Shown here: piece after piece, positions 11,849-40,240 of the stretch
Layout of the letters: each line of letters begins with the position of its first letter
Position numbering within the stretch: the first letter of the stretch is position 1
Source of the DNA: Lineus longissimus
Lineage: Eukaryota; Nemertea; Pilidiophora; Heteronemertea; Lineidae
Direction: 5' to 3'
DNA length: 64,000 nucleotides
Assembly (NCBI RefSeq): GCF_910592395.1
Contig: NC_088317.1
Span: forward strand, 2,914,001-2,978,000
Translations under genes and position numbers: made by a program
Notes under the pieces: model-generated
What the model was told of the DNA's origin: nothing
Databases searched by the model: none
Seen by the model: only the letters and a program-made list of their open reading frames with translations

Positions 11849-12054
11849 TTAGGCGCCAGGCTTTCCTTTTTTTCCATGTTCTCCAGATTTTTTTGCGTCA
11901 CCTTTTTTTCCATGTCCTCCAGATCTTTTTGCGTCACCTTTTTTTCCATGTCCTCCAGTTTTTTTTGCATCACCTTTCCCTGCACTACCTCCCTTACTAC
12001 TTTTACCTTTCGCAGCAGAACCTTCTACCAGTTTTGCTCTCATGGCGTCGCCAA
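11849..12054 (-). CDS. Gene B exon f: Lys/Gly/His repeat C-terminus and stop
   Basis: Final exon, preceded by a ttttttcag acceptor. It starts GDAMRAKL and then consists of repeats of the form GHGKKGDAKKSG (three near copies) with SKGGSAGKG, ending GKKGKPGA and TAA at 11851-11849. It is strongly basic. The paralogous exon in gene A begins GDALGMQLKKG at the same phase, which confirms the boundary. Confidence 0.8.
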
Positions 12055-15000
12055 CTGAAAAAAGGTTTTTTAAGTGGATGTGACAAATTATACTATAGTG
12101 ATTATCGCCCAGGTTCCCTCACCTGCCCTTTCGCACGAAACAATTATTTTGCCATGTTTTAAAAACAAAGGCTTTTTCTGTAAAGTTTGTTATCCGGAAA
12201 ATCAATTTCGTCGGAAAATTAGGATGATGTCCAAAAATATTGTCGCTCATCTCACCTATACATGTTCCGGGTTCTTGTGGATAGAGGTTGCTACCAGCTG
12301 GACATTTTCCGTTTTGGTCGGTGGCAATAAGTGGCACGGCACCTGAGGTAAAGATAATTGATCAATTAGTATAAATTACTATTCACTGTTGTACTAGGAT
12401 TTGCTTTTGAAAGTCTGCTGCTTATCACCTGGAGATATGGGCATAGGCAGCATTTCTCCAAAATTAGCATTTGACATAAAATGTATAAAACTGCTAAAGT
12501 TACTCCGAAATTGGAATTAGAACCACAGATCTCCCTTAAGAAGATGACTGATGATGAATAACGTACCCGCTTTAAACTTGGCCCAGTCCTTGACTGAAAA
12601 GGTAATGCAATGAAGTTAGTGCCGACTGAACAGCATCTTGACACAGAACAGAAGTTATCGTCAAGTCTTCCGAATACTACGGGACAAAAAGACTAGCGAA
12701 CGAGGACATGTTAGTGTGGGCTGTTTCTGCACGAGCAATCACAACCAAATAGTGGTAGTGCCTCCAGAACTGGGGAGCCATTGTCTCCTTCTGAGAACAC
12801 TACGAATAACGGATTTCGTTGGTTTATGTGGATGCCTTCCGAACTCAAAGGGCAAGAAGACTGATAAAGATTGAGGCCATAATATTAGTGCGGGCTGTTT
12901 CTGCTAAAACTATCACCACCAGTTAGTGGTGGTGCCTCCAGATGAGCTATTGTCCCTTGAATTATATGATATCCAAACACTGTGAACGATAAATCTCCAT
13001 ATGCCTTCCGAACACAACGGGGACCAGGTAATTCGCGATGACTAAACTGGCGAGGTCATGATATTAGTGCGGGATGAGGTGCAGATCACCACGATAAACT
13101 CCACACTTGAGCAACAATTATCAAATGAATTACAAAAGTTACTTACTGATGCAGGTGTTTGGTCTCTTGTCATACTTCTCGGTCCCAGATGGACACTTCC
13201 CGTGCTTCATATTGATGGTTCGTAAGTGGACAAAAACTTTAGCCTGGAAGGCCTTCAAGTTCCTGACTGAAACAGTTTTAGAGAAGGCAGTATAAGGAAA
13301 CCAAAAACCCCTCACTTTGAAGTGATGAACCAACGGAGTGGACGAGGACGGATCACGCGCCCACAATGACATCACACGTTTCGGTCCCGCTTCAAAATTG
13401 TTTTCTGCTGTCACTGTCACAATTAAAGCTTAATCAACTTTTGCCACCTATCAACTCCGTGTGTAGTACGGGTAAATGAGGGTCAAAGATAAATTTCCAT
13501 GCAAAAAGCGAGACCTGATGTCTTAATGGTCCTTAATGCGTTGATAGCAAATACTCGAGCATACTAGTATACTGAAAGACAAACAGGACAAGGTTGTGAC
13601 ATTGTCTCCCGACAGCAACTTGCCGTTAAAGTAGGCTACATTACGGAAACATACTCGTGCATAATCGTGGGTCCTTCTTATACGTCTTGGTCCCTGTTGG
13701 GCATTTCCCACTGTCGTTCTTGTGTGTCAGATGGACCAGGATGAGCTCTGTAACAGAATAATTAAACATTAGATTCGTACACAAAGTATACTCTGTTCTA
13801 ATCAGCTCAGTTCGCATACATCACTCTTTTCACTCGGGGTGGTTGGTGAAATTGCTCTCGGGGGGGAGGGGGGGGACGGGTACAATGTTGTACAAATATG
13901 TTCTATGTTTTACTGTACTTACTTCTGCAGAGGTTCTTCCAGAGTGGGTGAACCTTTGTTCCCGGTGGACACTTGCCATTCACCTTCTTTACCAGTTTGA
14001 TTGACATGCCTAGAAATGGGATAAAGCAATTAGGACTAGGAGAGAGATAAAGAAAATGTCTGGGTGCTACAAACTTTGGTGGCATAATATTAAAACTTTT
14101 CATCATGTTGATGTCTAATAAAATGTACTAAACTGCCAGATAATATTTTCGGAAAATTTTCTTGCCTTTTGTTACACCGTCCGGCGTTCTTGCACCAGCT
14201 CCAGTTCCCTTTCCACCAGCACCAGTTCCCTTTCCACCAGTGCCAGTCCCCTTTCCACCTGCACCAGTCCCCTTTCCTCCTGCGCCAGTCCCCTTACCAC
14301 CAGCACCAGTTCCCTTTCCACCTGCACCAGTCCCCTTTCCTCCTGCGCCAGTCCCCTTTCCACCAGCACCAGTTCCCTTTCCACCTGCGCCAGTCCCCTT
14401 TCCACCTGCACCAGTTCCCTTTCCTCCTGCACCAGTTCCCTTTCCACCTGCGGCAGTTCCCTTTCCTCCTGCACCAGTTCCCTTTCCTCCTGCACCAGTT
14501 CCCTTACCACTTGCACCAGTCCCCTTACCACTTGCACCAGTTCCCTTTCCGACTGCAGTTCCCTTACCACCAGCACCAGTTCCCTTTCCACCTGCATCAG
14601 TTCCCTTTCCTCCTGCCCCAGTTCCCTTTCCACCTGCACCAGTTCCCTTTCCTCCTGCACCAGTTCCCTTTCCACCTGCAGCAGTTCCCTTTCCACCTGC
14701 AGCAGTTCCCTTTCCACCTGAACCAGTTCCCTTTCCACCTGAACCAGTTCCCTTTCCGACTGCAGTTCCCTTTCCACCAGCACCAGTTCCCTTTCCACCT
14801 GCGGCAGTTCCCTTTCCACCTGCATCGGTTCCCTTTCCTCCTGCACCAGTTCCCTTTCCACCTGCACCAGTCCCCTTACCACCTGCACCAGTTCCCTTTC
14901 CTCCTGCACCAGTTCCCTTTCCACCTGCGGCAGTTCCCTTTCCACCTGCATCGGTTCCCTTTCCTCCTGCAGCAGTTCCCTTTCCACCTGCAGCAGTTCC

Positions 15001-18000
15001 CTTTCCACCTGCATCGGTTCCCTTTCCTCCTGCGCCAGTTCCCTTTCCTCCTGCACCAGTTCCCTTTCCACCTGCGGCAGTTCCCTTTCCATCTGCATCG
15101 GTTCCCTTTCCTCCTGCGCCAGTTCCCTTTCCTCCTGCACCAGTTCCCTTTCCACCTGCGGCAGTTCCCTTTCCACCTGCATCGGTTCCCTTTCCTCCTG
15201 CAGCAGTTCCCTTTCCACCTACGGCAGTTCCCTTTCCACCTGCATCGGTTCCCTTTCCTCCTGCACCAGTTCCCTTTCCTCCTGCACCAGTCCCCTTACC
15301 ACTTGCACCAGTTCCCTTTCCTCCTGCACCAGTCCCCTTACCACTTGCACCAGTCCCCTTACCGCTTGCACCAGTTCCCTTTCCGACTGCAGTTCCCTTT
15401 CCACCAGCACTAGTTCCCTTTCCACCTGCACCAGTTCCCTTTCCACCTGCACCAGTCCCCTTTCCACCTGCACCAGTTCCCTTTCCTCCTGCACCAGTTC
15501 CTTTTCCACCTGCATCAGTTCCCTTTCCACCTGCAGCAGTTCCCTTTCCACCTGAACCAGCACCCTTTCCTCCTGCACCATTTCCCTTTCCACCTGCAGC
15601 AGTTCCCTTTCCACCCGCACCAGTTCTCTTTCCACCTGCAGCAGTTCCCTTTCCACCTGCAGCAGTTCCCTTTCCACCTGCAGTAGTTCCCTTTCTTCCT
15701 GCACCAGTCCCCTTTCCACCAGCACCAGTTCCCTTTCCTCCTGCAGCAGTTCCCTTTCCTCCTGCACCAGTTCCCTTTCCACCTGCACCAGTTCCCTTTC
15801 CACCTGCACCAGTTCCCTTTCCTCCTGCACCTGTCCCCTTACCGCTTGCACCAGTTCCCTTACCACTTGCACTGGTACCCTTTCCGCCTTCAACCGTAAC
15901 CTTTCCTCCTGCAGCAGTTCCCTTACCACTTGCACCGGTACCCTTTCCGCCTGCACCCGTACCCTTTCCTCCTGCAGCAGTTCCCTTACCACTTGCACCG
16001 GTACCCTTACCGCCTGCACCCGTACCCTTTCCACCTGCAGCAGTTCCCTTACCACTTACACCGGTACCCTTTCCGCCTGCACCCGTACCCTTTCCACCTG
16101 CAGCAGTTCCCTTTCCACCTGCAGCAGTTCCCTTACCACTTGTGCCGGTACCCTTTCCGCCTGCACCTTTACCCTTTCCACCTGTACCCTTTCCTCCTGC
16201 AGCAGTTCCCTTACCACTTGCACCGGAACCCTTTCCGCCTGCACCCGTACCCTTTCCACCTTCAGCAGTGGTTCCCTTACCACCTGCAGCAGTTCCCTTA
16301 CCACCTGAAAAACAAAAATTACTTTAGGATTGCAACTGCTGGGTGTTTTTTAAATTGACATCACGTGATGTTCTTATATTTGGCAAAAGTGACTTACTTG
16401 GTTGCTTAGTTCCACCTGAAAGTTGTAATGTAGATCTGAGTTGGCAAATAATCTATTCAAAATAGTTAAAATTCAAACACTAATCTTTTTTTTACGTTTT
16501 ATAACTTTTTAGATGGCGATACTGATGGGATTGACGGCCCAAGCCGTTCTAGAAAGATTTTAAATTTGTGTTTGAATTTTTTGCGGAAAGTTCAGAGTGC
16601 GTACTGAATATAAATGTCAGCATTGCCGTTGTGCAGGCAGATGTACTAATACTTCAAATACCATGTTCCATCAAATTTGTGTTGAATTGGGACAAAAAAA
16701 TCCTGCTGCCATTTATTGCGGGACATGCCTTACCTTTTTTGACGTACACCCTGACCTCACAGAGGGTCAAGTACTGACCCCTTGCCTGCTGCACAGCCAC
16801 ATAACGGCCAGTCACGTCACCTCCACATCTCAGAACCTTTGTTGCTCCTCTTCCAACATGACCAGTGTGATGGGCGCAAAGTTTCACACCCTTAAGGTTC
16901 TGCCCCGTCAATGGCCTTTTGTCTGTCACTAGGATTTTGAAGTTATACAGGCGGTTCCCTGAAAAATAAAGTACATGCTTAGAATAGGATTCATGGATGA
17001 TCCAATCAAAAGTATCTTTCATCCGCAACATGAATTGAAATCCTTATATAGCTATGTTCAGCTGGGCTCTTACTTATCAATTAGCTGGCAAAAAATAATG
17101 TTCACACAGGTATCCCGAATCCAACAAATGTGCAAAATATCTTCGAATTGCGTGGTACCTTAAGTTTGCGCAAGTACCCACTCTCCCGAAAATTCCCGAA
17201 GTATTCGGCTCCTAAAAATAAAGTAGTTTACAGTGTTTGACACAGGTCAAGATGACTTCTAGATTGGGCTATTACTGACTTACAACAACAGTCTCCTCTG
17301 TTGACGACCTCCACCCTCTTGATAGTGTAACGGGCTTGAAGGTCAACTGCCCACCAGTTCCATCTCGTCCGACCTCGGTTATGGGTATGTGTACATGAAT
17401 TCCCTCTGTAATAAGTATTTGCGTTGCCATCAACAGCTCTCTGTGGCACGCCACCCCAGCCAACATCGAATTGCCAAGCCGGTTTTTTCAGAGCCATGTT
17501 TTTATCCACTGAAATACAATGTGTAAGTACATTTAATTCTGATTAACAATCTTGATGATATCATGTAGGAAATAGCAACGTTTGTTGCCCTGCTTCGTCC
17601 CTTTCTTCGTTTTGTCTTTCCAATACCATCGGATTTACATCTTCAGTACCAAATAGGTAGGCCAGGAAAAGCATTTGTTGATGAACATGTATCTCTTTGC
17701 CAAAAAATTGTTATAAAATGAAAAAATAAACTTTCGATCCGAAAATCAACAAGAAGGATTTACCTGATTGGCTCCCACCTGAATAACAATACAGTTTTCT
17801 ATAAGTTATTCAATAGAAGCGTGTAAGTCTAATTTAATTATTCAGTATAAAGTGTCTAATCATTTATTCAACATAAAGTGTTATTCTAATTAGTTATTCA
17901 ACGTTAAGTGTAGTCTAATTGGGTATTCAACACAAAGTGTCATTCTAATCATTTATTCAACATTAAGTGTTTAATGGTCTAGCAGTTATTCAAGAGTAAA

Positions 18001-21000
18001 ACAAATAACGAAGTGGTGTACAATCTTTGAGTGAATGAATAAGTGAATTTGTAATCTTGTACTTTTGATCTTGTACTATTTTTTAATCTTGTACTGTTTT
18101 TAATTGCAAAGTATATTACTACGTATTCTACCTTTTTTGCCGAATACCCTGACCTCACAGAGAGTCAGGTATTGATTCCTTGGCTGTTCTACAGCCACAT
18201 AACGGCCACTAACACCGTCTCTGCATGTCACGGTCTCCGTCGCTCCTCTGTCAACACCACCTGTGTGATGTGCACAAACCCTGGTAGCCCTCAGATTCTG
18301 CCCAGTATGTGGTTTGATGTCCGTCACAAGGATGACAAAGTTTTTCAGGCGGCCCCCTGAAAAGAGAATTCATTTGCTCATCTATTAACTCGCAATGCAA
18401 CTCTAACTGTAACTGAATGGACTTATCCCTCTCAATTACTATAATTTGAAATTAAACTAGCAAGTTTTAATGACATCTAGGAAAGGTTCCGTAAAGTTGC
18501 TATAATTGTCGACTGCTTTTGTAAAATTTTGATTTAGATTGAAATAAGAAACTGAGAGATATTTACAACTTACAGCAACAGTCTCCCCTGTTGACCACCT
18601 CCACCCTGCTGATGGTGTATCGAGTTTTGAGGTCAACTGCCCACCAGTTCTGGCTAGTTCGACCTCTGTTGTGGGTATGGGTACAAGAGCGACCATTGTA
18701 GTGAGTGTTGGCATTACCATCAGTGGCTCGACTTGCCACACCGCCCCAGCCAACATCGAATTGCCACGCTGGTTTTTGCAAAGCAAGATTGATCTCTTTC
18801 ACTGAAATACAAAAAGTGTTAACTTTTCTTCATGAACTGTTTGATATCAAAAGTGGTATTTATGAACAATTTTCATGTCAGAAAATAAAAATATTGCCTG
18901 GTCAAAGCAATCAAAGTCCTCATAATTAATTAATCAATTAAGTTGTAAAAGTTAAAAAAACAACTAAAATGTACTTACCTGGTTTGGTTCCACCTGAAGT
19001 TTATCCAAAAGTTCTGAGTTAACGTCAAGTTAGTTTTTCAACATCAACAGCAGAAGACATAAAGGAGATGCACATGTGTACGCCGTGCAATTAGTCTTTA
19101 GTTCGTAGGTTTGTCTTGCAGTGATGGCTTTTACGTATACTGTTTGTCATAATATGTCAGGGATAACGACGAGACCTTGTGCAATTGTATAGCATTGTAA
19201 TAATGGAACATTAAGTGTTCAATATTTCGTTTTCTCTTCGGCATCGTGGTTGAGGGATGCGGTAAGAAAATTATGAAAACTTGGCAAATCGAGATTTACC
19301 TTTTTTGCCGTATACCCTGACCTCACAGAGGGTCAAGAACTGGCCCCTTTGTTGCTGTATTGCCACATAACGGCCACTAACCCCGCTTTTACACGTTACA
19401 ACCTGTGTCGCCCCTCTACCAACACCACCACCATGGTGGGCACAAAGTCTGACATATTCCAGGTCACGTCCTGTCCTTGGCTTCACATCTGTCACCACGA
19501 CCTTGAAATTTCGCAAACGGGTCCCTGGAAAATCATGCAGTAGTTTATATTTGGGAATCAATACATTATTGAACTATAATGTAAAGAGTTTATATCAGTC
19601 ATTATAATGGTTAGGAGGGTTAGAATGCCATAACTTCCAAAAGCGACTTGGAAGGTGAGGCTGTAATAGTTATAGAGTATTGCCAACATGATGAAAAGAA
19701 CATATCTTGTATGATTTTCAATTAAGAGTTATTCAGTTTTGATGTAAATACTGGTATGTATTTAACTGACATGCACATTTTTTTAACCCACACTCAACTT
19801 ACAACAGCAGTCAGCCCTGTTGACTACCTCTACTTTCTCGATGGTGTAGCGAGCTTTAAGGTCAACCGCCCACCAGTTCTGACTGGTCTTCCCAGAGTTA
19901 AGGGTATGGCTGCAAGAGGCACCGTTCCAGTAAGGATTGGAATTGCCATCAGTGGCCCTCCATGGTACACCACCCCAGCCTACATCGAATTGATATGCTG
20001 GTTTTCTAAAAGCAAGGTTAATAGGTGTTCCTGAAATGAAATTCGAGTTCTTTGAGTAAGTGATATTGGCAAACAAGCTTTAGAAAGTTTTATGTTGTAG
20101 AGCTATGAGGAAGTTGGAGTGGGCGTATATCTCACTGAAGAATTTACTATCTACATGTATATATTATTTCTATCATATTCAGTTATTGCAGTAGAAGAAG
20201 AAAACACATTGATTTTAAAAGGGAACTGTTTATCATCAGCATCCGAAATCGCAGAAGAAAAGAAATAGATAATTTCATTTGAAAAGAATATGTGTAAAAC
20301 TGGGAAAAATCATTTGTTGGTTTAAATCTGTGACATCATCAATGACGTATGAAGGTAAACTGATTGATATTTTGATTTTAAAAGTATATTTAGGGCAGGG
20401 ATGTGATTCCCTGCTAAGCTTACCCGGTCCCTTGGCCCCAGGAGCTGGAAAAAGATGTATTGGTAAATGTATGAGTATGAAAACTTTAGGCAAACTATGA
20501 CTATGAGTTGTATGGACAGGACGGATGTTTTATACGCAGTCTTACAGGTATCGTGGCTTAATTGTCTTCGTCTTGTAGAGCCTGATTTCATTGGATAAAC
20601 GAGAAATCCTGTAATCCTTACCACTTTAAAGTTTTCAATTTATAAATGGTGTAGTTTGAATGAAGAAATACGAAAACATCAGTGTCTTAATTGTGGCTAA
20701 CGATGATTCCCTACTAGGTTCTGGACATATTAGAATAAAAATAGTTTTTGACATATGTGAGATGTTAGTTAAGACAGACTATCATTGAAACATATGCCTC
20801 ACCTTTTTTGCCAAACACCCTGACCTCACAGAGTGTCAGGTGCTGGTTCCTCGGCTGCTGTACAGCCACATAACGGCCGCTAATACCACCTTTGCACTTC
20901 AGTGTCAGTAAGGCTCCTCTACCAACACCACCCCTGTGATGGGCACAGACCTTAACACCTTTAAGGTTATTGCCTGCTCTTGGCCTGACGTCTGTTACAA

Positions 21001-21646: not shown

Positions 21647-21761
21647 CTGAAATACAATACACTTCCGAATTTAGTATTCTATCGTTTAAAAAGTTCATGC
21701 CAGATGTTGCTGTTGTCCTATGAATTAGTTGTGTGGTGCTGTTGAGGTTGTGAATTAGAGT

Positions 21762-22003
21762 TTTCTGTGTGGTCAAATAGGTATCACATCTTGTCATATT
21801 GACACAATGTCTCTTGATGTCGTTCTGTGTCTGGTAGCCGGGGAGTTCCTTCTATTAGAAATCTTTATGAATGCTGTTCTTGGTTAACAGGACAACTGCT
21901 CATTGATCTTCTGAAATCTGTTTTCTAAACACAGTAACTAAACTTTTAAATGAAAAAGCATGAAACAAATGACATGGTCCTAAAAAACTTATGTTTACGT
22001 ACG
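21762..22003. repeat. Block shared with gene A introns (third copy)
   Basis: About 240 bp nearly identical to 29811-30047 and 33641-33877, including 'ctgtgtctggtagccgggga(a/g)ttcctt' and 'gacatggtcctaaaaaactt'. It stops at the splice donor of the gene A exon at 30048/33878 and that exon is absent here. Confidence 0.85.
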
Positions 22004-24233: not shown

Positions 24234-25190
24234 ATGAAAAGTCAAGGACTTAGTGCGCCCCCCCCCCTTTATGTCGGGGGAGCACCCCGAACTCCCCTAC
24301 GATAGTGTAACGTTTTTACCCAGTACCATGGAGGGGAACCCACCCCCCACCCCCCAGCCCCATGTTGGGACCATCCATAGTTCCTTCCGACACATTTTTG
24401 TTTTGGTAATACATTGTCCTTATTCATTAGTGAGTGTAAATCAGTGTTATATATAATTCGGGGGGACACCCCAGCACCCCCCCCCCATTTTGGCCTTGCG
24501 GCCAGGCAGATTGTTCACCATTCATTCCCTCCAGTTTTTAAAAGTAGTTCATATTTGTTTGTTCCAATCATGGAAAATTGGTTCAATGATGCTCAAGAGA
24601 GACAGGATAGTATTATTACTCCCTTCACAGACTGTAGTTTGTTCGTTGTCCGCTAGGTTGCAGAAATTCGGTCATTCATTGAACTCTAGCCAATTTGCTC
24701 GCGCAATCGGTGTTTGGATTATGATTATGAGTTTGCTTGTAAAACGCTGCTAAATACAAATGATTTTTCTAGTTATGTTGGCATTTTATATCGAGGGCGG
24801 TTCAAAAATTTAAATTAATTTAATAATTGAATAATTAGAGCCTACAGCCAACCAACGGCAATGAAATATGCGACTCCGAGGAGCTGCCTGGTGACGAGTG
24901 TGCGAGATGGTTGGTGACGAGATTAGTAACTACCCCGCAAATTCAGCGCCATTTTGAAATCAGAAGTGCGACCAAAAAATCTTTCTTGGCAGGCCGATAT
25001 GGATTGGATTGACCAAATAATATTTCCCCACCTGTATAATATCTTACGTGCCTCGTCCTAACGGGGGGTGCACAATCAATCGCACTGTAAATGGCCGAGC
25101 AATGATATGAAAAGTCAAGGACTTAGTGCGCCCCCCTTTAGAATTTCATATTTGTTCGTTCCAATCTTGGCAAATTGGTTCAATGATCAT
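24234..25190. repeat. Dispersed repeat fragments with C-runs
   Basis: 'tatgaaaagtcaaggactta' followed by 'gtgcgcccccc' occurs at about 24234 and again at about 25107, and 'ttcatatttgttngttccaatc' with 'aattggttcaatgat' follows both (24548 and 25145). They are direct copies of one interspersed element with internal deletion in the second. Confidence 0.65.
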
Positions 25191-25437
25191 ATGTATGTCG
25201 ATAGGACTTAATTGCTATCTGGGAAGTGCCACGCTTCTGTAAAATTGTAAAATGTTTGGAAAAGCTTTGAATAAGCGCCGATGTGTACTATCTTTCGCTG
25301 ATGCTGGATGGTGATCTAGCATATTTATGATCCATTCAAGAGTTGGAGTTGGGTGCTGAGAACATCCTGTCGTGGCCGATCGTAATGGAGCTGCGTTAAG
25401 TGCAGACAATTGATCACCACGGGGCTAGCGTCTCATC

Positions 25438-25471
25438 GGTGGGGGGGGGGGGGAGACGGGGGGGGGGGGGC
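25438..25471. repeat. Poly-G tracts, G-quadruplex potential
   Basis: Two runs of about 13-14 G residues separated by 'agac', on the plus strand. Assembly errors in run length are likely here. Confidence 0.7.
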
Positions 25472-25566
25472 AGAACACTCGGTCCTGTACTGGGCTGAAT
25501 CTGCCAATTTATAAAAACATTAAAAATGTGCACCAACAAAACATCTTGATTCATATAAAATGATAT

Positions 25567-25572
25567 TTTATT
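25567..25572 (-). terminator. Polyadenylation signal of gene A
   Basis: Minus-strand AATAAA, about 150 bp past the gene A stop. Confidence 0.55.
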
Positions 25573-28800: not shown

Positions 28801-31800
28801 AGCCCTTCAGTATGGTAAGGCCAGCAAGTTTAGCCTTCAAGGGATAGCTCTTGTTAGCTGGTCTGATCCCGGTATACACATCGCCAGAGGTGTCAGGTAT
28901 TGCCTTCGTCCTCTTTTTGAGTAGTAGGTCACTGTCAATCCACATGAGCAACTCTCCGGTGTCCGCGTTGTAACTGACTCCGATGAAATGCCATTTCTTA
29001 GGTGTGACCTGTTTGAAGTGCTGCATGAGGGTGGGGCCTGTTTTCGGGTCGACATTGACAAAGAGTTTTCCTTGCCAGATCCAAAAGTGTGTTCCAAAGG
29101 GGCCGTTACCACGCCATTCTGCGATTGCTCCGTTCTTGACCTGATCCTGGTAGAACCATACCGCAATTGTGAAACTGCCTTTGAAGTCCAGCTTGCCGCC
29201 GTTGGATACCTTTGTGTAGGCAGTCTTGAGTCCAGGGTAATTCCAGGCTTTTAGCTTTCCGGGACCAGAGGTTTGTGTTACACCCTTGACGGTAAGTGTT
29301 AAGCCTTTGAGGTGCTTTGGCTTTGGTTCGGTGGTGGGGCCAAGAACAAGCCACGATGGATATCCAAAGAAAGAACCTGTAAGAAAATTGGGAAATCTGT
29401 TTTTTGTTTTCGCATCAGAAGCTTTGCAGATGATTATTATCGTGTTATATAATGTAAACTGCTGAGATAGACTAATCCATTATTGTTGGGTTGTGGTTTC
29501 TAATTCAGAGTCGTTCGCCACTTTCTTCATGCAGCCCATTAAGTTCATTTTCTGGCCCGCCCTCTTACTTCCCATGCCTAGGTAATATCTGAATAGTTCG
29601 GAAATAATGCCAACTATCAATTAGAACGTTGCAATGTAACACTGCAGTGCGAACCAAATCGGCAAGTTTCTTGCTTTACCTGATGTAGACTTTTTTGGCG
29701 AGGGCTTTGACTTTCCACCAGTCGGTTTACCTGAGAAGAAAACGTCAAGATCTTCGTGAAAAGTCTATTTTAGGTATGTGGTTATTGAGTATTATATTCT
29801 GATTACATTTTTTCTGTGTGGTCAAATAGGCATCACATCTTATCATACTGACACAAGGTCTCTTGATGTCGTTCTGTGTCTGGTAGCCGGGGAATTCCTT
29901 CTGTTAGAAATCTTTATGAATGCTGTACTTGGTTAACAGGACAACTGCTCATTGATCTTCTGAAATCTGTTTTCTAAACACAGTAACTAAACTTTTAAAT
30001 GAAAAAACATGAAACAAATGACATGGTCCTAAAAAACTTATGTTTACCTTTTTTTATAGTTTGAATATTCAGTATGTTGTCTTTGAAATACAAAGTGACG
30101 TATTCAATTGATCATGGCCAATCTAGTGACACGCTCCTCTCAACTGACAAGGGAAAACCTTTTCAACTCCTCATTAATCATCTGAAATCCCTTTCAAATG
30201 TTGTCTTATCTTATCACAGTTACTCATATTTTGAAACAGTATGAACAAATTATGTAGCCCTATTACCGATTCCTCACGGATGTTGCTACTATCAATTTTG
30301 ATAATTATTCAATACTGATAATAAAACAGAACTTACCTGTTTTTTTTGGTGACCCAGAAGCTGAAAATGATGGATATTAATCTGTACCAATTTTCTAAGA
30401 GAGAGCAAAATAGCTCAGAAATGAAAAAGGAACACAGTTATAAGGCTGATGGCCAGGTGCTACAGTATTAGTTTTCTTCCTTCTTCATTTCGTTGTTATG
30501 ACAATTATGTCTTGAAGATCATTTTTTAAATCATTTGATTCATGTATAGTGCTAGTATTCAAAGTCGTAATCCCAGCATGAGTTGTACGTGTAGTGTTGG
30601 ATGGTTGCTGCTGAAGATATTAGCAGCTTTGATTATTGCCAATTCGTGTATCAACCTCATTTTCACAGTTAAATGGCTGCGACTTGCAGCGGTACAGCAT
30701 ATCTAGTGTCTCCGTGGAATAGAGTTGATTAATTTTAGAATTACTCTTTTTGTGTTATTAGGTAAAAAGTGTTCTCTTTTCAGCGTATAAACTCAATTCT
30801 TTTCATAACTTACCTCCGCATGATAGTTCTGTACCAAAGAGAACAATAACACAACATCATAATAATGTTAGAATAGAATGTCATTGCACTGTTTTCTAGT
30901 TGTGATGACGCTGGGAGGTTATAAAAAGAGACAATCTCTCTCTCAAGCAGCCATTGCCAGCTGTGTTCAGTTCAGAATCATTGAATTATATCATTCAGAA
31001 TAAGACTAATACGTTCACCTGATAGGTTTAATCACTTGATCTTCTAAATGAAATTTGTGACAGCCAGCCAGCTTAGCGTATAGGAGAAATATTTGTGGCT
31101 GACAATGAAAGGCAATGTCATTCAACTTACTTGTCCACTGGTGGTAGGTCTTGTTTCCTCTGTTCCTTAGTTGTCCTGACTTACACGCGTACCTATAATC
31201 AAACCAATTAGTTGGTTATTATCATATTTAATATTTTGGTAAGCGCCTACCCATTCCAGGATTTGGTGAGATAAAAGGCGTTTTTAGGATCAAGATATAA
31301 TAGAAGACCGTTTAGGAAAAAAGAACAGCATTGATAAATGCTCACCGCTTTAGCCAGCAGCTCCGTCCTCGATGCTGGATAGACTTGCACTCATTTTTAT
31401 ATGTACACAACCTCTTGCACTGATGAAGGGTCTTCCCACCATAGTGTTTGATGTCATGACCCCAGCAATCGCCGTTCTCGTGCTTATATTTACAATTCTC
31501 TGAAAAGGATAAAAGAACGTCTTGAAGTCATTATTCAAAACAGAAACTGATCCTAAGTTTCTTCGGAACCTGACGAATTTACTCGCAGAAGGGATGCAGG
31601 CACTAATTTTAGAACCTCAGACTCGTAACAAAACAGATAAGTCAGTGTCATATATTGATTTGTCGGAAAATACAAAACTGTTGAATCTTACTTACTTGAA
31701 ACCTTCGCTGAAAAATGTAAAAACGGATTTGTGATAGTTTTTAGTTGGTTTCTTTTGACCAATTGGTTGTCTATACACATGTAGGCTAAAATGGTGTTTA

Positions 31801-34800
31801 ATATTTGGATGCTTAGGTTTTCCTTCGTTTTGCATTTAGTCCTTCACTTCAATCCCCTTTGCATGAAATAGATATTTTTGGCAATGACAGTGCTCCCGCA
31901 CACTTTCTGTTTCTTCAATAATACGCTAGGGAACTTAGAGGTGTTGTCTTTTTTTCATCTTGATAGTAACTCTTACATTTGGTCGTACTGGGCAAGAATT
32001 CGTATTCAATAATTGGGAAGTATGAGGTGTGTCAGTACTGCATTGACCGCAGAAGTCTTGGATAACATGTCGTTCTGCTTTTATTCTATATGCAAATATC
32101 AAATATAATGTAATTAAAGATATGCAGTTTCTAACTTACCACACGTGTCTGTAACAAATGAGATAAAAGACATAAAACATTGATGTCAGAATATACAATG
32201 GATTTCAAGGCGATTTGTTATCATAATGTGGTTCTAACTAAAATTGGTTGTAATTTTCTCTCAACCTGGAGTAAGAATGCATACATAGCCTTGGAATGAA
32301 TTTGGGAAAGGCGTAGTATGTGATTTCAGTGGTACTTAATGTAATATTTTCAATTCACATTCTCAAAGATTTCTTCAAGTTTACCCCCTGACAACTTTGT
32401 AATGCAGAAGAAGGTTGAAATTTGAGACTGATGAAGCACATTAGTTCAACTTACTTGTCCACTGGTGGAATGTCTTGTTTCCTTTACTTCGTAGTTCATT
32501 CGATTCGCATGCATACCTTAAGAGGTAGAAAAGCTTTAAGATGTTGTATCACTTCTCTATTAAAATCACTTCTTAAGCTTTGAGTATGTATTTTGCTGAA
32601 GTCACTTAGGACGGGCAGTCGTAACTGCATGGATGACATGCCAGGCATGTGAGACTTGGAGTGGCATTTGCCCTTCCTTCTTAGCTAAAGCGTGTGTTTA
32701 GAATTATATCAATATTTTATTTCGATTGCAATAGCGGAAGGAAAGAAAAAAAGTGACTGGAATTTAGATGAAGAAGACAGTTGGGATGCTTACCATTTTA
32801 GCCAGCAGCTTTTGCCACGGTGTTGGATAGACCTGCAATCTGCTCGAGCTTTACATAAGCTCTTACACTGGTCAAGGGTCTTTCCACCGTAATGCTTAAT
32901 GTCGTTACCCCAGCAGTCACCATGCCTATGCGTAAAACACTTATCTGAAACATGAATCATTAACATAAACAGTAAGTTTTTACTGGAGATTAGGGCACGA
33001 TATTCTCCCAGATATAGTTTGCAGCCTTCAACATTATTCCTATTGCTCTTCAATACTGCATGGCCACATATAAACATGCGGAATGATAGGCCTACATTAT
33101 ACAAGTTGTAATATTTCTCCGTACGTGTTTGGATGTCTACACTGTTCATCATGCTGCTACACGGCGTAAGATTTGGTAGGAACCATTCTGAAATTTCAGA
33201 GGTATTTTCTCCGCAGACTCCGTAGCCACATACCTCTGAAGAAATCAATAGGCTTTGCAGATGATTATTATCGTGTTATATAATGTAAACTGCTGAGATA
33301 GACTAATCCATTATTGTTGGGTTGTGGTTTCTAATTCAGAGTCGTTCGCCACTTTCTTCATGCAGCCCATTAAGTTCATTTTCTGGCCCGCCCTCTTTCT
33401 TCCCATGCCTAGGTAATATCTGAATAGTTCGGAAATAATGCCAACTATCAATTAGAACGTTGCAATGTAACACTGCAGTGCGAACCAAATTGGCAAGTTT
33501 CTTGCTTACCTGATGTAGACTTTTTTGGCGAGGGCTTTGACTTTCCACCAGTCGGTTTACCTGAGAAGAAAACGTCAAGATCTTCGTGAAAAGGCTATTT
33601 CAGGTTTGTGGTTATTGAGTATTATATTCTGATTACATTTTTTCTGTGTGGTCAAATAGGCATCACATCTTATCATATTGACACAAGGTCTCTTGATGTC
33701 GTTCTGTGTCTGGTAGCCGGGGAGTTCCTTCTATTAGAAATCTTTATGAATGCTGTACTTGGTTAACAGGACAACTGCTCATTGATCTTCTGAAATCTGT
33801 TTTCTAAACACAGTAACTAAACTTTTAAATGAAAACACATGAAACAAATGACATGGTCCTAAAAAACTTATGTTTACCTTTTTTTATAGTTTGAATATTC
33901 AGTATGTTGTCTTTGAAATACAAAGTGACGTATTCAATTGATCATGGCCAATCTAGTGACACGCTCTTCTCAACTGACAAAGGAAAACCTTTTCAACTCC
34001 TCATTGATCATCTGAAATCCCTTTCAAATGTTGTCTTATCTTATCACAGTTACTCATATTTTGAAACAGTATGAACGAATTATGTAGCCCTATTACCGAT
34101 TCCTCACGGATGTTGCTACTATCAATTTTGATAATTATTCAATACTGATAATAAAACAGAACTTACCTGTTTTTTTTGGTGACCCAGAAGCTGAAAATGA
34201 TGGATATTAATCTGTACCAATTTTCTAAGAGAGAGCAAAATAACTCAGAAATGAAAAAGGAACACAGTTATAAAGCTGATGGCCAGGTGCTACAGTATTA
34301 GTTTTCTTCCTTCTTCATTTCGTTGTTATGACAATTTTGTCTTGAAGATCATTTTTTAAATCATTTGATTCATGTATAGTGCTAGTATTCAAAGTCGTAA
34401 TCCCAGCATGAGTTGTACGTGTAGTGTTGGATGGTTGCTGCTGAAGATATTAGCAGCTTTGATTATTGCCAATTCGTGTATGATCCTCATTTTCACAGTT
34501 AAATGGCTGCGACTTGCAGCGGTACAGCATATCTAGTGTCTCCGTGGAATAGAGTTGATTAATTTTAGAATTACTCTTTTTGTGTTATTAGGTAAAAAGT
34601 GTTCTCTTTTCAGCGTATAAACTCAATTCTTTTCATAACTTACCTCCGCATGATAGTTCTGTACCAAAGAGAACAATACACAACATCATAATAATGTTAG
34701 AATAGAATGTCATTGCACTGTTTTCTAGTTGTGATGACGCTGGGAGGTTATAAAAAGAGACAATCTCTCTCTCAAGCAGCCATTGCCAGCTGTGTTCAGT

Positions 34801-37800
34801 TCAGAATCATTGAATTATATCATTCAGAATAAGACTAATACGTTCACCTGATAGGTTTAATCACTTGATCTTCTAAATGAAATTTGTGACAGCCAGCCAG
34901 CTTAGCGTATAGGAGAAATATTTGTGGCTGACAATGAAAGGCAATGTCATTCAACTTACTTGTCCACTGGTGGAAGGCCTTGTTTCCTCTGTTCCTTAGT
35001 TGTCCTGAATTACACGCGTACCTATAATCAAACCAATTAGTTGGTTATTATCATATTTAATATTTTGGTAAGCGCCTACCCATTCCAGGATTTGGTGAGA
35101 TAAAAGGCGTTTTTAGGATCAAGATATAATAGAAGACCGTTTAGGAAAAAAGAACAGCATTGATAAATGCTCACCGCTTTAGCCAGCAGCTCCGTCCTCG
35201 ATGCTGGATAGACTTGCACTCATTTTTATATGTACACAACCTCTTGCACTGATGAAGGGTCTTCCCACCATAGTGTTTGATGTCATGACCCCAGCAATCG
35301 CCGTTCTCGTGCTTATATTTACAATTCTCTGAAAAGGATAAAAGAACGTCTTGAAGTCATTATTCAAAACAGAAACTGATCCTAAGTTTCTTCGGAACCT
35401 GACGAATTTACTCGCAGAAAGGATGCAGGCACTAATTTTAGAACCTCAGACTCGTAACAAAACAGATAAGTCAGTGTCATATATTGATTTGTCGGAAAAT
35501 ACAAAACTGTTGAATCTTACTTACTTGAAACCTTCGCTGAAAAATGTAAAAACGGATTTGTGATAGTTTTTAGTTGGTTTCTTTTGACCAATTGGTTGTC
35601 TATACACATGTAGGCTAAAATGGTGTTTAATATTTGGATGCTTAGGTTTTCCTTCGTTTTGCATTTAGTCCTTCACTTTAATCCCCTTTGCATGAAATAT
35701 ATATTTTTGGCAATGACAGTGCATTTGGTCGTACTGGGCAAGAATTCGTATTCAATAATTGGGAAGTATGAGGTGTGTCAGTACTGCATTGACCGCAGAA
35801 GTCTTGGATAACATGTCGTTCTGCTTTTGTTCTATATGCAAATATCAAATATAATGTAATTAAAGATATGCAGTTTCTAACTTACCACACGTGTCTGTAA
35901 CAAATGAGATAAAAGACATAAAACATTGATGTCAGAATATACAATGGATTTCAAGGCGAATAGTTATCATAATGTGGTTCTAACTAAAATTGGTTGTAAT
36001 TTTCTCTCAACCTAGAGTAAGAATGCATACATAGCCTTGGAATAAATTTGGGAAAGGCGTAGTATGTGATTTCAGTGGTACTTAAAGTAATATTTTCAAT
36101 TCACATTCTCAAAGATTTCTTCAAGTTTACCCCCTGACAACTTTGTAATGCAGAAGAAGGTTGAAATTTGAGACTGATGAAGCACATTATCCTTTAGTTC
36201 AACTTACTTGTCCACTGGTGGAATGTCTTGTTTCCTTTACTTCGTAGTTCATTCGATTCGCATGCATACCTTAAGAGGTAGAAAAGCTTTAAGATGTTGT
36301 ATCACTACTCTATTAAAATCACTTCTTAAGCTTTGAGTATGTATTTTGCTGAAGTCACTTAGGACGGGCAGTCGTAACTGCATGGATGACATGCCAGGCA
36401 TGTGAGACTTGGAGTGGCATTTGCCCTTCCTTCTTAGCTAAAGCGTGTGTATAGAATTATATCAATATTTTATTTCGATTGCAATAGCGGAAGGAAAGAA
36501 CAAAAAGTGACTGGAATTTAGATGAAGAAGACAGTTGGGATGCTTACCATTTTAGCCAGCAGCTTTTGCCACGGTGTTGGATAGACCTGCAATCTGCTCG
36601 AGCTTTACATAAGCTCTTACACTGGTCAAGGGTCTTTCCACCGTAATGCTTAATGTCGTTACCCCAGCAGTCACCATGCCTATGCGTAAAACACTTATCT
36701 GAAACATGAATCATTAACATAAACAGTAAGTTTTTACTGGAGATTAGGGCACGATATTCTCCCAGATATAGTTTACAGCCTTCAACATTTATTATTCCTA
36801 TTGCTCTTCAATACTGCATGGCCACATATAAACATGCGGAATGATAGGCCTACATTATACAAGTTGTAATATTTCTCCGTACGTGTTTGGATGTCTATAC
36901 TGTTCATCATGCTGCTACACAGCGTAAGATTTGGTAGGAACCATTCTGAACTTTCAGAGATATTTTCTCTGCAGACTCCGTAGCCACATACCTCTGAAGA
37001 AATCAATACCTCTCTACACTGCGCGCCGGTGTTTGCGCGGCACCTTACTCAAGTTGGTTTAATTCTGCTGTTCGTAGTGTACACTGTGTATATATACGTG
37101 TTTATAAACCAACATATCTTGAAAACATATTTCGATAACATAGACCTTACCCCTAAGTTTCAATGCAAAATTTATGGGGTTTTGAGTGAGACCATTGTTG
37201 AGATCGTCAGACTCTGCGTCCGATCGTGATGATCAGTCGAAACTATAAAAGAACAATAGCCAATCTACCGCGTTTGAAAATGGTTTGTATGTAAATGCAT
37301 GCTGTACTCTCTATCAAGGTCGCGACGCGCGTTGTCTGAAAACTGAACAAGGTGAAAACATTGAAGGTCAAGATGGTATAAGCAGGAGTTTTAAAGATTG
37401 CAAACATTTTTGCAGTCACGATTTGTAATGCTATGTTTTTATGCAGCAAATGTTAAACTTGCATTTTTTCGGACGAGCATAAAAGCTTTAGTATCAGAAT
37501 ATGCTTATTCTTAATGTAAATGTGGATGTCATTTGAACGTGTGACCGAAAAGCTGTAGATCAAAAGGTTTCAGAATTATCAACCAACAACAAAAAGATGC
37601 TTGTTTGCACGTTTGCAATCTCATAGAGAATAATATGTAATACTGTATGGTTGCTAGTTAGAAGTATATGTATTTCAATCGGTGGTTTACTATTACTTAA
37701 ACTTAAAGTTAGAAATGAAAATAACTTACTCGGTGAGGTCCGAGAGGCTGTAAGGTATGAATATGGATATGCGGTAATTTGAGTTTTTTAATTCATTTAC

Positions 37801-38986
37801 AATTTTCCTTCTAACAAACTAGTATCTTCAGGTTAAGGCAATTCCCTCCTTTTCCATGCACTTTCCTCTCTTTTCCCCTTGACCTGACGAAAAGGATGAA
37901 TTCATTTTGAATTTTTCTTCTAACAGACTGGTATCTTCAGGTTAAGCCTTTACATATTCCCCTTTTTCCATACACATTCTCCCCTTTTCCTCGGACCTGA
38001 CAAAAAGGACAAGTATCCCCGTGAACCATGAAGAATACACAAGACGAAATAAAAATAGAAATAACCAAAACTCCTTTTGTGACTTTATTCTATGCACGAC
38101 TTACACAACATGTTCGAAAGGTTTTTAATTTCATTAAGCCATTATGAAATAATCAAATCTTCTTATGGTAACCGTTTTTAATTGAACAAGCTGTAATAAC
38201 GCTGCAGTGTTGCTTAATATCACTCTTGTCATACCTTTTGTGCCAAACACCCTGACCTCACAGAGGGTCAACGGCTGGCTCCTCGCCTGCTGTACAGCCA
38301 CATAACGTCCGCTCACACCACCTTTACATGTCAACCTCTGTGTAGCCCCTTTACCGACACCACCTTTATGGTGGACACACACCCTGACGCCTTTTAAGTC
38401 TTTCCCTGTCTGTGGTTTGACGTCTGTTACAAGGACCTGAAAGTTTTTCAGGCGCTGCCCTAAACGATAAATTATTGGAGTCGTGTAACAAAAGAATGCC
38501 ATTTACATATCCACTTATTTTTATATATGAGACTTGCTTATCATTTCTAACATTCATATTGGTTAATAGGCAGATGAATAGATCATGCATGTTACCATCA
38601 GTCCGCTGCGTACCCATTACCATGTTTGCAACGGTAAACCATTATTCACACCAAACTACTGGTCATATGGAATAAGGTCTGCACATTTGATTAAGGCGTC
38701 GAAAGAACCTCATTCGTGTTTGCATATACAGGTAAACCTACATTGTTAAACTTACAACAACAGTCTCCTCTGTTGACTACCTCTACCCTCTTGACCGTGT
38801 AACGGGCTTGAAGGTCGACTGCCCACCAGTTCCTACTCGTCCGACCTCGGTTATGGGTATGTGTACATGAACGCCGTCCGTAATTAGTATCAGCGTTGCC
38901 ATCAACAGCTCTCTGTGGCACACCGCCCGAAGAGACATCGAATTGAAATGCTGGTTTTCTCAAAGCAACATTTGTTTCTTTTTTTC
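25724..38986 (-). CDS. Gene A: F-type lectin, 4 PAN-like domains, LamG-like, Lys repeats (5' end not found)
   Basis: A paralogue of gene B on the same strand. In order: F-type lectin (38986-38756, 38459-38235), linker (37747-37730), a PAN-like pair with linkers (36698-33510), a second near-identical PAN-like pair with linkers (32944-29680), a LamG-like exon (29376-28744), a Lys-Ser-Gly repeat exon (28326-27739) and cassette exons a to f (27484-27395, 27275-27183, 27007-26888, 26628-26602, 26266-26180, 25884-25724). All junctions are phase 1 except the intron splitting each PAN-like domain (phase 2), and the frame is continuous throughout, about 1,130 residues. No signal-peptide exon was found above 38986. 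It is probably a secreted, cationic, multidomain glycan-binding protein; an extracellular adhesive or matrix role is inferred. Confidence 0.78.
26180..26266 (-). CDS. Gene A exon e: GKCPxG module
   Basis: SAPLIALDSNGKCPKGSAPY then PKEPGTCLG; acceptor aattccag and GTAAGT donor. Orthologous in position to gene B exon e. Confidence 0.78.
26602..26628 (-). CDS. Gene A exon d: 27-nt microexon
   Basis: NQWLKFKK between ttttctag and GTAGGA, phase 1 on both sides; counterpart of KDWAKFKA in gene B. Confidence 0.65.
26888..27007 (-). CDS. Gene A exon c: GKCPxG module with FVHLRT leader
   Basis: TDMKAFQAIVFVHLRTIAM then GGKCPSGSVPYTKRKNTCI. It is 120 nt, the same as in gene B. Confidence 0.8.
27183..27275 (-). 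CDS. Gene A exon b: GKCPxG module
   Basis: IILIHLTHKDELGKCPAGTK then QYKKDPKLCK; 93 nt as in gene B, GTATGT donor as in gene B. Confidence 0.8.
27395..27484 (-). CDS. Gene A exon a: GKCPxG module
   Basis: TVSIKLVKKVNGKCPPGTKV then HPLWPNLCR; 90 nt, one codon longer than in gene B at its start. Confidence 0.82.
27739..28326 (-). CDS. Gene A Lys-rich repeat exon: (GKKS)n then GGAAPTKKK repeats
   Basis: A 588-nt exon, phase 1 at both ends. The N-terminal third is about 15 uninterrupted copies of a 12-bp unit encoding GKKS (two as GKKP). The rest is seven longer repeats of the pattern GGAAPTKKKSGSAPGKKT, with a KPEGKPDKK/KAGGKPDKK variant in the two nearest the GKKS tract, closing TSTKTAATSPGGSEG. 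It contains no methionine in frame. The net charge is strongly positive. It occupies the position taken by the KGTGAGG exon in gene B, so the two genes carry different cationic repeats in the same slot. Hydrophobic (FLPD) and NLAR frames over the same DNA are shadows. Confidence 0.85.
28586..28722 (-). pseudogene. Decayed partial duplicate of the LamG-like exon 3' end
   Basis: Minus-strand sequence from 'gggatcagaccca' to 'aacaaggcggcag|gtaaag' aligns with the last about 130 nt of the LamG-like exon (28744 side: 'gggatcagaccagc' to 'ggcaaggctgcag|gtaaac'). The donor is kept but a frame shift and substitutions separate it from the parent frame. Confidence 0.6.
28744..29376 (-). CDS. Gene A LamG-like (concanavalin A-like) domain exon
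   Basis: One 633-nt exon, phase 1 on both sides, 211 residues. Typical jelly-roll landmarks: a hydrophobic strand FTIAVWFYQDQ after LDFKGS, the central GTHFWIWQGKLFVNV, then KKWHFIGVSYNADTGELLMW, and a closing LAGLTILKGSIKTKDQIDKL, the pattern of LamG/pentraxin-like domains (W-H-F-I-G-V-S-Y followed by a tryptophan strand). Such domains often bind glycans or matrix proteins; the ligand here cannot be told. The last 15 residues are helical and basic and lead into the Lys-rich exon. Confidence 0.75.
29680..30828 (-). CDS. Gene A linker microexons, unit 1
   Basis: Four small phase-1 exons: 30828-30814 (15 nt, LSCG), 30360-30337 (24 nt, SGSPKKT), 30080-30048 (33 nt, NILNIQTIKK) and 29730-29680 (51 nt, KPTGGKSKPSPKKSTS). 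Each has GTAAxT-type donors and pyrimidine-rich acceptors. The first supplies a cysteine after the second PAN-like domain; the others form a Lys/Ser/Gly/Pro linker towards the LamG-like domain. Confidence 0.62.
31131..31499 (-). CDS. Gene A PAN-like domain, unit 1, second of pair
   Basis: Exon 31499-31346 reads NCKYKHENGDCWGHDIKHYG then KTLHQCKRLCTYKNECKSIQ and SCWLK; a phase-2 intron separates exon 31192-31131, YACKSGQLRNRGNKTYHQW. Cysteine spacing (C...C, CxxLC, EC, SIQ) resembles PAN/apple-type domains; the fold is inferred. The final cysteine comes from microexon 30828-30814. Confidence 0.68.
32140..32944 (-). CDS. Gene A PAN-like domain, unit 1, first of pair, plus 9-nt microexon
   Basis: Exon 32944-32794: KCFTHRHGDCWGNDIKHYGG, CKSLCKARADCRSIQ, SCWLK. 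Exon 32516-32455: YACESNELRSKGNKTFHQW. Microexon 32148-32140 (ACACGTGTG) encodes Thr-Cys between a cttttgttacag-type acceptor and GTAAGT, phase 1 on both sides. The parallel 15-nt exon after the next domain supports it. Confidence 0.66.
33510..34658 (-). CDS. Gene A linker microexons, unit 2
   Basis: Counterparts of unit 1: 34658-34644 (LSCG), 34190-34167 (SGSPKKT), 33910-33878 (NILNIQTIKK), 33560-33510 (KPTGGKSKPSPKKSTS). Coding sequence is identical in the two units. Here they lead into the first PAN-like domain of unit 1. Confidence 0.6.
34960..35328 (-). CDS. Gene A PAN-like domain, unit 2, second of pair
   Basis: Exons 35328-35175 and 35021-34960. The first is identical to its unit 1 copy. 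The second differs (YACNSGQLRNRGNKAFHQW), with several amino-acid changes in 62 nt while flanking introns barely differ. Confidence 0.66.
35886..36698 (-). CDS. Gene A PAN-like domain, unit 2, first of pair, plus 9-nt microexon
   Basis: Exons 36698-36548 and 36269-36208 and microexon 35894-35886, identical in coding to unit 1. It follows the linker microexon at 37747-37730. Confidence 0.66.
37730..37747 (-). CDS. Gene A linker microexon, 18 nt (SRTSP)
   Basis: Between 'cataccttacag' and GTAAGT, phase 1 on both sides, placed between the F-type lectin and the first PAN-like domain exactly where gene B has its linkers. Confidence 0.5.
37793..38010. repeat. Intronic direct repeat, two copies of about 110 bp
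   Basis: 'ttctaacanactngtatcttcaggttaa' followed by 'ccttttccat(g/a)cac' and 'ttttcc...gacctgac(g/a)aaaagga' occurs twice. Confidence 0.7.
38235..38986 (-). CDS. Gene A F-type lectin domain (two exons)
   Basis: Exon 38986-38756: NVALRKPAFQFDVSSGGVPQ, CTHTHNRGRTSRNWWAVDLQ, VVNRGDCC. Exon 38459-38235: QRLKNFQVLVTDVKPQTGKD, VCVHHKGGVGKGATQRLTC, SGRYVAVQQARSQPLTLCEV. RxDx4R is intact. DVSSGG replaces the DVGWGG of all four gene B copies. An acceptor precedes 38986, so a 5' exon is missing. Confidence 0.87.
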
Positions 38987-39009
38987 CTGAAATGGAGTAA
39001 ATAGGCGGC

Positions 39010-40240
39010 ACTGTTGAATGGAGTTATAAATAAATATAAAGACGTGACATTCGATCTGAAAATATAACCGAGAGACTTGAAGGATTAACGTCAGTACAAC
39101 ATGTTACTAATAACTGATAACTCGATAGCTACTAAAGCTTTATGATATACCCATGCAGTTTTAATGTTTTTCTGATTATAAAATACTATACATGTAGAAA
39201 GTTCTTTCTATCAATACATTAAGCTTAAAATGTGTTGGACACGACCACTTTGAGATAAGGTACTAACACGATCTGCCGAGTATATGATAAACAAGGTAAC
39301 TGCAATATAGAAACGGGTAAAATTTGAATTTGAAATTGAAAGTGTGCAACAAATAAGAGAAACAGAGAAACTAATGATGTCTTCTGAAAAAGTAAGTGAA
39401 AAACGGCAAAAACCTGAAAAAGACAAAAAAATAGTTTAATATGTGGAATACAGATCACAATACAGATCCCAATGGGTAGCCTGCTAACTCAATAAAATCG
39501 TCCTCGACGATCTAATCGACGGTACGAATTTTAGGCGTCGAGGAAAAGGATCGCGCCAAGCACAGCTGGGCCGTGGAATTCGAGTTATCCTGAGTTATTA
39601 TTGTATCAACACGCCATGCTGTTCTCTGCTTTGTCGGAGTTAGTGCTACAGTTTGTTATCCGTAAAGAAATTTGAAAGTCTGAAGCCGTATCTTACTGAA
39701 AAGTTTGAAATGGAATCGCCATTTGTCCCTCAGTCTTCCTCCTACATAGATGTGGGATGGTGAATGCACATTTCTTAAAAAACCCTATGGTATAAGCCAT
39801 GCAAACGTGTAGGGACTCTGACCGGAGCCTATACGCCAATTAATGGAAAGAACAAGGGACAGCTGTACCAAAGGGCCATCGAACCATTTATCACCTGACT
39901 TGAAGGTACTTGTAGCTGTGATAAAACGTATACCATCAGACGAAAGACGAATATATCGATTGGTGCAAAACTCAAGGGTATTCCATTTAGATATGCCATA
40001 CCAAAACAAAGTATAAGGTCTTATATATGCATTTTGATGATGACACACATTGTTATATCAACCAACCACGTTTACAATGTTGGGACTGATCATGCGGTGC
40101 CAAGGCCGGCCGCCGCGTGACTGGTATGAGCTAAGTACTGTTCGTCGCGCGTACATTGCCCGTACATTTTAGACAAACTTGCTCTTAAAACATAACGGTT
40201 ATTACATTCAGATCTGTTCCTTTAATGATACCAAACAAAA
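39010..40240. other. Gene A 5' flank, no exon assigned
   Basis: AT-rich. The gene A signal-peptide exon may lie here but no start codon with a phase-1 donor was convincing. A minus-strand open frame at 39785-40048 is not recognisable and has no supporting features. Confidence 0.5.

Follow-up and report, generated by a model that had tools for sequence, protein, structure and literature searches.

Two neighbouring genes in a 64,000-nucleotide stretch of the Lineus longissimus genome (contig NC_088317.1, positions 2,914,001 to 2,978,000 of the forward strand; hereafter the window) both contain F-type lectin exons and the same six-exon cassette, which carries the motif GKCPxG, with different basic repeats between the two parts. 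This confirmed what a preliminary description of the DNA had observed. The genes, which we designate A and B, lie on the minus strand and were modelled from 38986 to 25724 and from 21646 to 11849, respectively. We tentatively interpret their predicted products as modular extracellular cross-linkers, a reading that falls somewhat short of an even chance. The F-type lectins would grip fucosylated glycans, the long flexible Lys-rich chain would bind polyanionic mucus or surfaces, and the cysteine cassette would likely network the chains. The exon models are as follows (coordinates of genes A and B are window positions).

11849..21646, minus strand: gene B, 19 modelled exons with 4 F-type lectin domains, 4 short linkers, the KG repeat exon and the 6-exon cassette, in frame in a GT-AG, phase-1 chain
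20803..21646, minus strand: gene B F-type lectin domain 1, exons 21646-21401 and 21027-20803 (PDB matches)
19300..20030, minus strand: gene B F-type lectin domain 2, exons 20030-19803 and 19524-19300 (exon model, motif check)
18132..18801, minus strand: gene B F-type lectin domain 3, exons 18801-18574 and 18356-18132 (exon model, motif check)
16734..17508, minus strand: gene B F-type lectin domain 4, exons 17508-17284 and 16958-16734 (exon model, motif check)
20444-20424, 18993-18979 and 17778-17764, minus strand: gene B linker micro-exons of 21, 15 and 15 bp between the lectin domains
16398..16415, minus strand: gene B linker micro-exon of 18 bp, from lectin domain 4 to the KG exon
14178..16304, minus strand: gene B KGTGAGG (KG) repeat exon, 2127 bp, 709 codons, 102 Lys-led units
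11849..14009, minus strand: gene B six-exon GKCPxG cassette, exons 14009-13923, 13747-13655, 13266-13147, 12593-12567, 12342-12256 and 12054-11849, ending at the stop codon
25724..38986, minus strand: gene A, 28 modelled exons with a lectin domain, a PAN-like pair plus linkers twice, a laminin-G domain, the KK exon and the cassette
38235..38986, minus strand: gene A F-type lectin domain (PF22633), exons 38986-38756 and 38459-38235; its join to the PAN-like exons is the least certain
30814..36698, minus strand: gene A PAN-like units, arranged as tandem pairs at 36698-34644 and 32944-30814 (four units in all) and including micro-exons of 9 and 12 bp (below the Pfam cut-off)
34190-34167 and 33560-33510, minus strand: gene A two basic linker exons (exon model)
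29680..30360, minus strand: gene A linker exons again, a second copy of each, 30360-30337 and 29730-29680 (exon model)
28744..29376, minus strand: gene A laminin-G_3 domain, a single 633-bp exon
27739..28326, minus strand: gene A GKKS/GGAAPTKKK (KK) repeat exon, 588 bp, 196 codons
25724..27484, minus strand: gene A six-exon GKCPxG cassette, exons 27484-27395, 27275-27183, 27007-26888, 26628-26602, 26266-26180 and 25884-25724 (exon model)

All introns of the two splice models are GT-AG (18 of 18 in B, 27 of 27 in A). Those of B are without exception phase 1; in A, 23 are phase 1 and 4 are phase 2, the latter located inside the PAN-like units. The modelled exons are strongly basic throughout, even in the lectin domains (isoelectric points of 10.2 and 10.5 and net charges of approximately +192 and +186 for the two genes).

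The lectin assignment is supported by profile and structure-database searches. The gene A domain matched PF22633 with 69.5 bits against a Pfam cut-off of 27.8 (E = 3.8e-19), so that the F-type lectin named in the preliminary description was recovered. The best solved relatives of gene B lectin domain 1 were striped-bass FBP32 (3cqo, E = 2.3e-36) and eel agglutinin (1k12, E = 5.4e-17), and the gene B lectin-domain exons are included among the PF22633 exon matches of the genome (G000, 391,118,348 bases), which number at least 128 and are often clustered in tandem. The His/Arg/Arg triad with RxDx4R and the vicinal cysteines (RxDCC) is present in 5 of 5 domains, with domain 1 of B aligned to the eel lectin. 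In that lectin the triad and cysteine-pair residues contact fucose, according to a review that words the F-type motif as HX24RXDX4(R/K) (PMC5712786). The canonical X24 spacing was not found: all 5 domains have HX29R, and the eel lectin itself has X26 (by eye from the alignment). The loop between the His and the Trp-Trp is three residues longer than that of the eel lectin. The cation motif (two small hydrophobic residues, DG, then N/D/S) reads AVDGN in 2 domains (A and B4) and ATDGN in the other 3. The kept triad and the longer loop suggest that the domains likely bind fucose and that their sugar specificity may differ from that of the eel lectin.

Between lectin and cassette, gene A has two further domain types. 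The four PAN-like units scored below the Pfam cut-offs (PAN_4, 21.0 bits against 27; PAN_1, 20.4 against 21.4), and we therefore designate them PAN-like. They form a 2 + 2 tandem duplication that is 98–99% identical, introns included, and this duplication could thus be recent or an assembly artefact. Phase-1 joining of the units requires the micro-exons 35894-35886 (9 bp) and 35536-35525 (12 bp) and their copies 32148-32140 and 31707-31696. The 633-bp exon passed the Laminin-G_3 profile (PF13385; 33.4 bits against 27.6) and had 96 genome matches at E <= 0.01. Its relatives, 43–50% identical, include eight in tandem at C7:19437983-19447167 and a large group at C17:58619-1367036 and C15:1454746-1480488. 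Matches to an F-type lectin and to laminin-G lie within approximately 5 kb of each other at C10:6083226/6084075, C10:6274023/6274866, C10:17758868/17754734 and C4:5743159/5740634, so such pairs may be frequent across the genome. Copies of a 238-bp sequence that are 97% identical occur upstream of the first lectin exon of B (21761-21998) and in two introns of gene A (29810-30047 and 33640-33877), and represent either a repeat or a shared regulatory piece.

The repeat exons proved close to their first description. The approximately 100 KGTGAGG heptads claimed for B correspond to 102 Lys-led units, of which 94 are heptads and 41 read exactly KGTGAGG; the GKKS and GGAAPTKKK repeats claimed for A correspond to 15 GKK[S/P] units and seven 18-residue units led by GGAAP[T/A]KKK. 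The Lys is kept in 94 of 94 KG heptads, and the array has 105 Lys/Arg against 12 Asp/Glu. Entropy at codon positions 1, 2 and 3 of the 94 heptads is 0.21, 0.25 and 0.74. In the proposed frame, 119 of the 182 changes from the consensus are synonymous and none creates a stop; when the changes were placed at random 2000 times, the synonymous count averaged 95.7 and never exceeded 110. This codon-position test led us to reject an artefact of repeat DNA as the explanation of the KG exon, with the caveat that one plus-strand frame of the array is also open (102 of 182 changes synonymous, no stops); this makes for a less clear-cut control, and the test favours the minus frame without by itself excluding the other. 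For the KK exon the corresponding entropies are 0.30, 0.17 and 0.39, a weak test with seven units. The two repeat exons had been called interchangeable. They do occupy the same slot in the same reading phase, but no alignable sequence was found that could tell exon exchange from divergent repeat growth in one ancestral exon.

The cassette comprises six exons in both genes, with equal lengths except for the first and the last, and its A and B versions are 65% identical in alignment. Eight cysteines, in A, B and C (a third gene, described below), are arranged as four CPxG[TSY]x9C units. This pattern fits 18 of 18 units across five genes, A to E (4, 4, 4, 3 and 3, respectively), and a hydrophobic stretch mostly precedes the unit. 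The rates of nonsynonymous (dN) and synonymous (dS) substitution between the cassettes of A and B are 0.206 and 1.385 (NG86) or 0.213 and 0.872 (YN00). Across all 10 pairs of lectin domains dN is 0.13–0.22 and dS 0.64–1.25. With dN far below dS, both the lectins and the cassette are under purifying selection.

No Pfam family scored above its cut-off for the cassette of A or B. The closest was the CC domain (PF04942), which remained below its cut-off of 20.6 bits in A (19.1) and B (12.2). The CC domain is likewise a small cysteine module, and the NCBI protein of gene C carries a precomputed PF04942 label, but the cassette unit has two cysteines 14 residues apart and lacks the CC pair. A PDB sequence search with the cassette returned no match up to E = 1, and NCBIfam gave a chance-level match (E = 0.05, 13.6 bits against a cut-off of 50). 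AlphaFold2 applied to the gene C protein alone yielded a mean predicted local distance difference test score of 43.8, from which no structural reading was taken.

A query of the worm's own genome with the cassette returned 14 exon matches at E <= 10, distributed over A (4), B (4), C (3), D (2) and E (1); this single run, with all matches scored, may have overlooked copies that have diverged further. Genes C, D and E lie on the same contig as the window, C10, and the coordinates of D and E are positions on it.

62988..63575 of the window, plus strand: gene C (NCBI LOC135494423), first two cassette exons, the remainder running past the window to C10:2979043 (tblastn)
C10:6704351-6718262, plus strand: gene D, three laminin-G exons, linker exons of 27 and 78 bp, and cassette exons 1-4 and 6 in frame
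C10:17252232-17248687, minus strand: gene E, a 1506-bp (502-codon) Lys-rich phase-1 exon followed by three cassette exons

The NCBI protein of gene C (uncharacterized, Lineus longissimus) was placed in five tblastn pieces at C10:2976988-2979043, identical inside the exon bounds by reading, with residues approximately 62–69 unplaced. Its first exon begins in the same phase as those of the other cassettes, which makes the annotated start uncertain; no repeat exon was seen in the 6.5 kb upstream on the plus strand. In gene D, the laminin-G exons are 40–43% identical to that of A and short basic linkers precede the cassette. Cassette exon 5 was not found at the locus, and exon 4 would need a GC donor. 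The lone genome-search match of gene E has E = 5.9, and its assignment rests on two neighbouring cassette exons and the basic exon, whose open frame is 20.5% Lys. The 8.7 kb upstream of that exon contained no lectin, PAN or laminin-G match at E < 0.2. Two near-identical tRNA-like sequences are located beside gene E (positions 2026-2097 and 2941-3014 of locus L042, by eye).

Since the cassette stands behind different domains and basic stretches in A, B, D and E, the family follows a rule of variable domains, a variable basic stretch and a constant cassette. The basic stretch takes the form of long repeats in A, B and E and of short linkers in D, and none was seen in C. Genes D and E, found elsewhere on the contig, strengthen the claim of a small cationic family in which lectins are joined to one cassette and the basic parts vary. 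A broader proposal, which we regard as doubtful, is that this is a new and so far ribbon-worm-only family in which the cassette serves as a universal end plug and phase-1 exon shuffling varies the polylysine chains and the glycan- and matrix-binding domains; the products would then be tunable mucus cross-linkers, a glue design independent of that of flatworms, with fucose lectins as the grips.

The lectin, repeat and cassette exons of each of A and B are predicted to be spliced into one transcript. The cysteine-rich lectin, PAN-like and laminin-G domains suggest that the products are secreted. The eight cassette cysteines may form disulfides and oligomers and so link the chains into a network, possibly in the epidermal mucus or the sticky proboscis secretion. 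A review describes nemertean epidermal mucus as chemically not well explored (PMC6410017). In the proboscis of the hoplonemertean Antarctonemertes valida, fucolectin homologues are up-regulated and gland cells make sticky mucus (PMC9132205). A glue based on 3,4-dihydroxyphenylalanine (DOPA) was rejected, since neither repeat contains Tyr.

Lysine-rich chains can be antimicrobial, and the products could instead serve humoral or mucosal defence. Their lectins would recognise microbial glycans and their polycationic chains would permeabilise microbes or make them agglutinate, in the manner of an opsonin or an antimicrobial protein. The abundance of PF22633 exons in the genome fits this alternative, as does the role for which F-type lectins are chiefly known, that of recognition proteins in innate immunity (PMC5712786). 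We nevertheless consider it unlikely: the Gly/Lys arrays, which are regular and as long as 709 and 196 codons, have a structural look, as does the cysteine cassette, and the Pfam scan recognised no protease, complement or receptor domain.

An extracellular matrix protein or elastomer is improbable. In such a protein, lysyl oxidase or transglutaminase would cross-link the Lys of the Gly-rich arrays, and the product would be an elastic component of the body wall or basement membrane, anchored by its lectin, laminin-G and PAN domains. The laminin-G and PAN-like domains of A, the laminin-G exons of D and a Lys every seven residues in a Gly/Ala/Thr chain are what such a protein might show, but the charge is extreme for an elastomer, and neither a lysyl-oxidase motif nor a known elastomer family was seen, no search having been aimed at either.

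Several results weigh against the cross-linker reading itself. (i) Two scans for a first exon encoding a signal peptide found nothing convincing for either gene: the first offered no candidate for B and, for A, three that overlap at 43385, within a different gene cluster; the second offered two weak ones for B and one for A, and all were rejected for weak donors or their place. (ii) The donor of the KG exon is the weakest of the 45 scored (2.1 on our own matrix); an alternative GT 18 bases upstream keeps the frame (by eye). (iii) The 1.5-kb gap between the lectin and PAN-like exons of A contains six A[A/T]TAAA hexamers, possible poly(A) signals, and this join is the weakest link in the gene A model. 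(iv) The NCBI model of gene C consists of nothing but the cassette and lacks a lectin, a repeat and a signal peptide. (v) Public proteins of 106–1942 residues included no cassette protein except that of gene C, so no public gene model in this range agrees with A or B as drawn. These searches covered approximately 106–336 (2650 candidates), 329–1048 (301) and 611–1942 residues (36) and rely on shared five-residue words, so that distant relatives can be missed. (vi) No F-type lectin repeat protein is named in the accessible parts of two papers on nemertean secretions (PMC11768458 and PMC7460313).

Points (iii) to (v) also favour regarding A and B as composites, that is, adjacent lectin genes and repeat/cassette genes transcribed apart, with no lectin-polylysine protein in existence. 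Against this stand the exons of B, which are phase-compatible and GT-AG with no terminal exon between them, and the linker micro-exon before the KG exon, which is of the same kind as those between the lectin domains. In addition, an AATAAA lies 258 bases past the stop codon of B and 152 past that of A, though such hexamers occur approximately once per kb, and the order of laminin-G followed by cassette recurs in D. There is little chance, in our estimate, that the two genes are composites. Taken as a whole, the interpretation in the preliminary description is partly supported.

Two other features of the window lie outside the family. On the plus strand, 41386-56479 is a tandem array of four long similar frames (306–339 amino acids; 43327, 47190, 51084 and 55463), each preceded by a shorter cysteine-bearing frame. 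Its blocks are 75–93% identical, and the copies tested had no Pfam or NCBIfam match; we treat it as an unnamed gene family. On the minus strand, 58804-60391 contains a transposase-like frame (DDE_Tnp_4, E = 1.5e-22) with an unassigned neighbouring frame at 59771-60391.

Known F-type lectins (MsaFBP32, eel agglutinin and PF22633 in general) have features in common with the present family, namely tandem lectin domains, vicinal cysteines and the His/Arg/Arg triad. Mosaic architectures are frequent among F-type lectins, but the partners given in the accessible text of the review are pentraxin, C-type lectin, H-type lectin, CCP and similar domains, none of them a polycationic repeat or this cassette (PMC5712786). 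Among the papers returned by searches of an open-access library, as far as their text was listed, none described F-type lectins combined with polylysine repeats and this cassette. The earlier remark that no described protein with this layout was known agrees with this for the parts and their arrangement, but it had left unnamed a functional precedent, Mlig-ap1 of the flatworm Macrostomum (PMC6410801). That protein combines a C-type lectin domain with Lys/Arg-rich regions exceeding 3,600 residues; it is required for attachment, as revealed by RNA interference, and heparin blocks attachment (PMC6410801).

The likeness would lie in a lectin-type domain together with very long, Lys/Arg-rich regions of low complexity, the positive charge of which is thought to be cohesive in the flatworm proteins (PMC6410801). 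In Theama, whose Tmed-ap1 to ap3 are a further precedent for the design, the lectin-type domain and the Lys/Arg-rich regions are split over two proteins (Tmed-ap1/ap3; PMC9229212). In A and B these parts are phase-compatible exons of one strand and are predicted to be joined. The domains described for the flatworm proteins are C-type lectin, von Willebrand D and EGF, whereas the ribbon worm genes encode F-type lectins, a cysteine cassette unrelated to those domains and, in A, PAN-like and laminin-G domains. This comparison, made between described domains and not between sequences, showed no domain family in common. The secretion and function of the flatworm proteins have been tested, whereas those of the ribbon worm proteins are predictions. 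By analogy with Mlig-ap1, cohesion would come from the polycation and grip from the lectins. Genes A to E provide concrete candidates for structural proteins of nemertean mucus. Together they form a natural series with a constant end module, in front of which the chain differs in its charge pattern and the binding domains differ too. If the cross-linker reading is true, this would be a second lineage of worms to have cohesive lectin-polycation proteins, and these would offer a template for DOPA-free wet adhesives. The design principle is one known from flatworms, and the parts and their arrangement are new.

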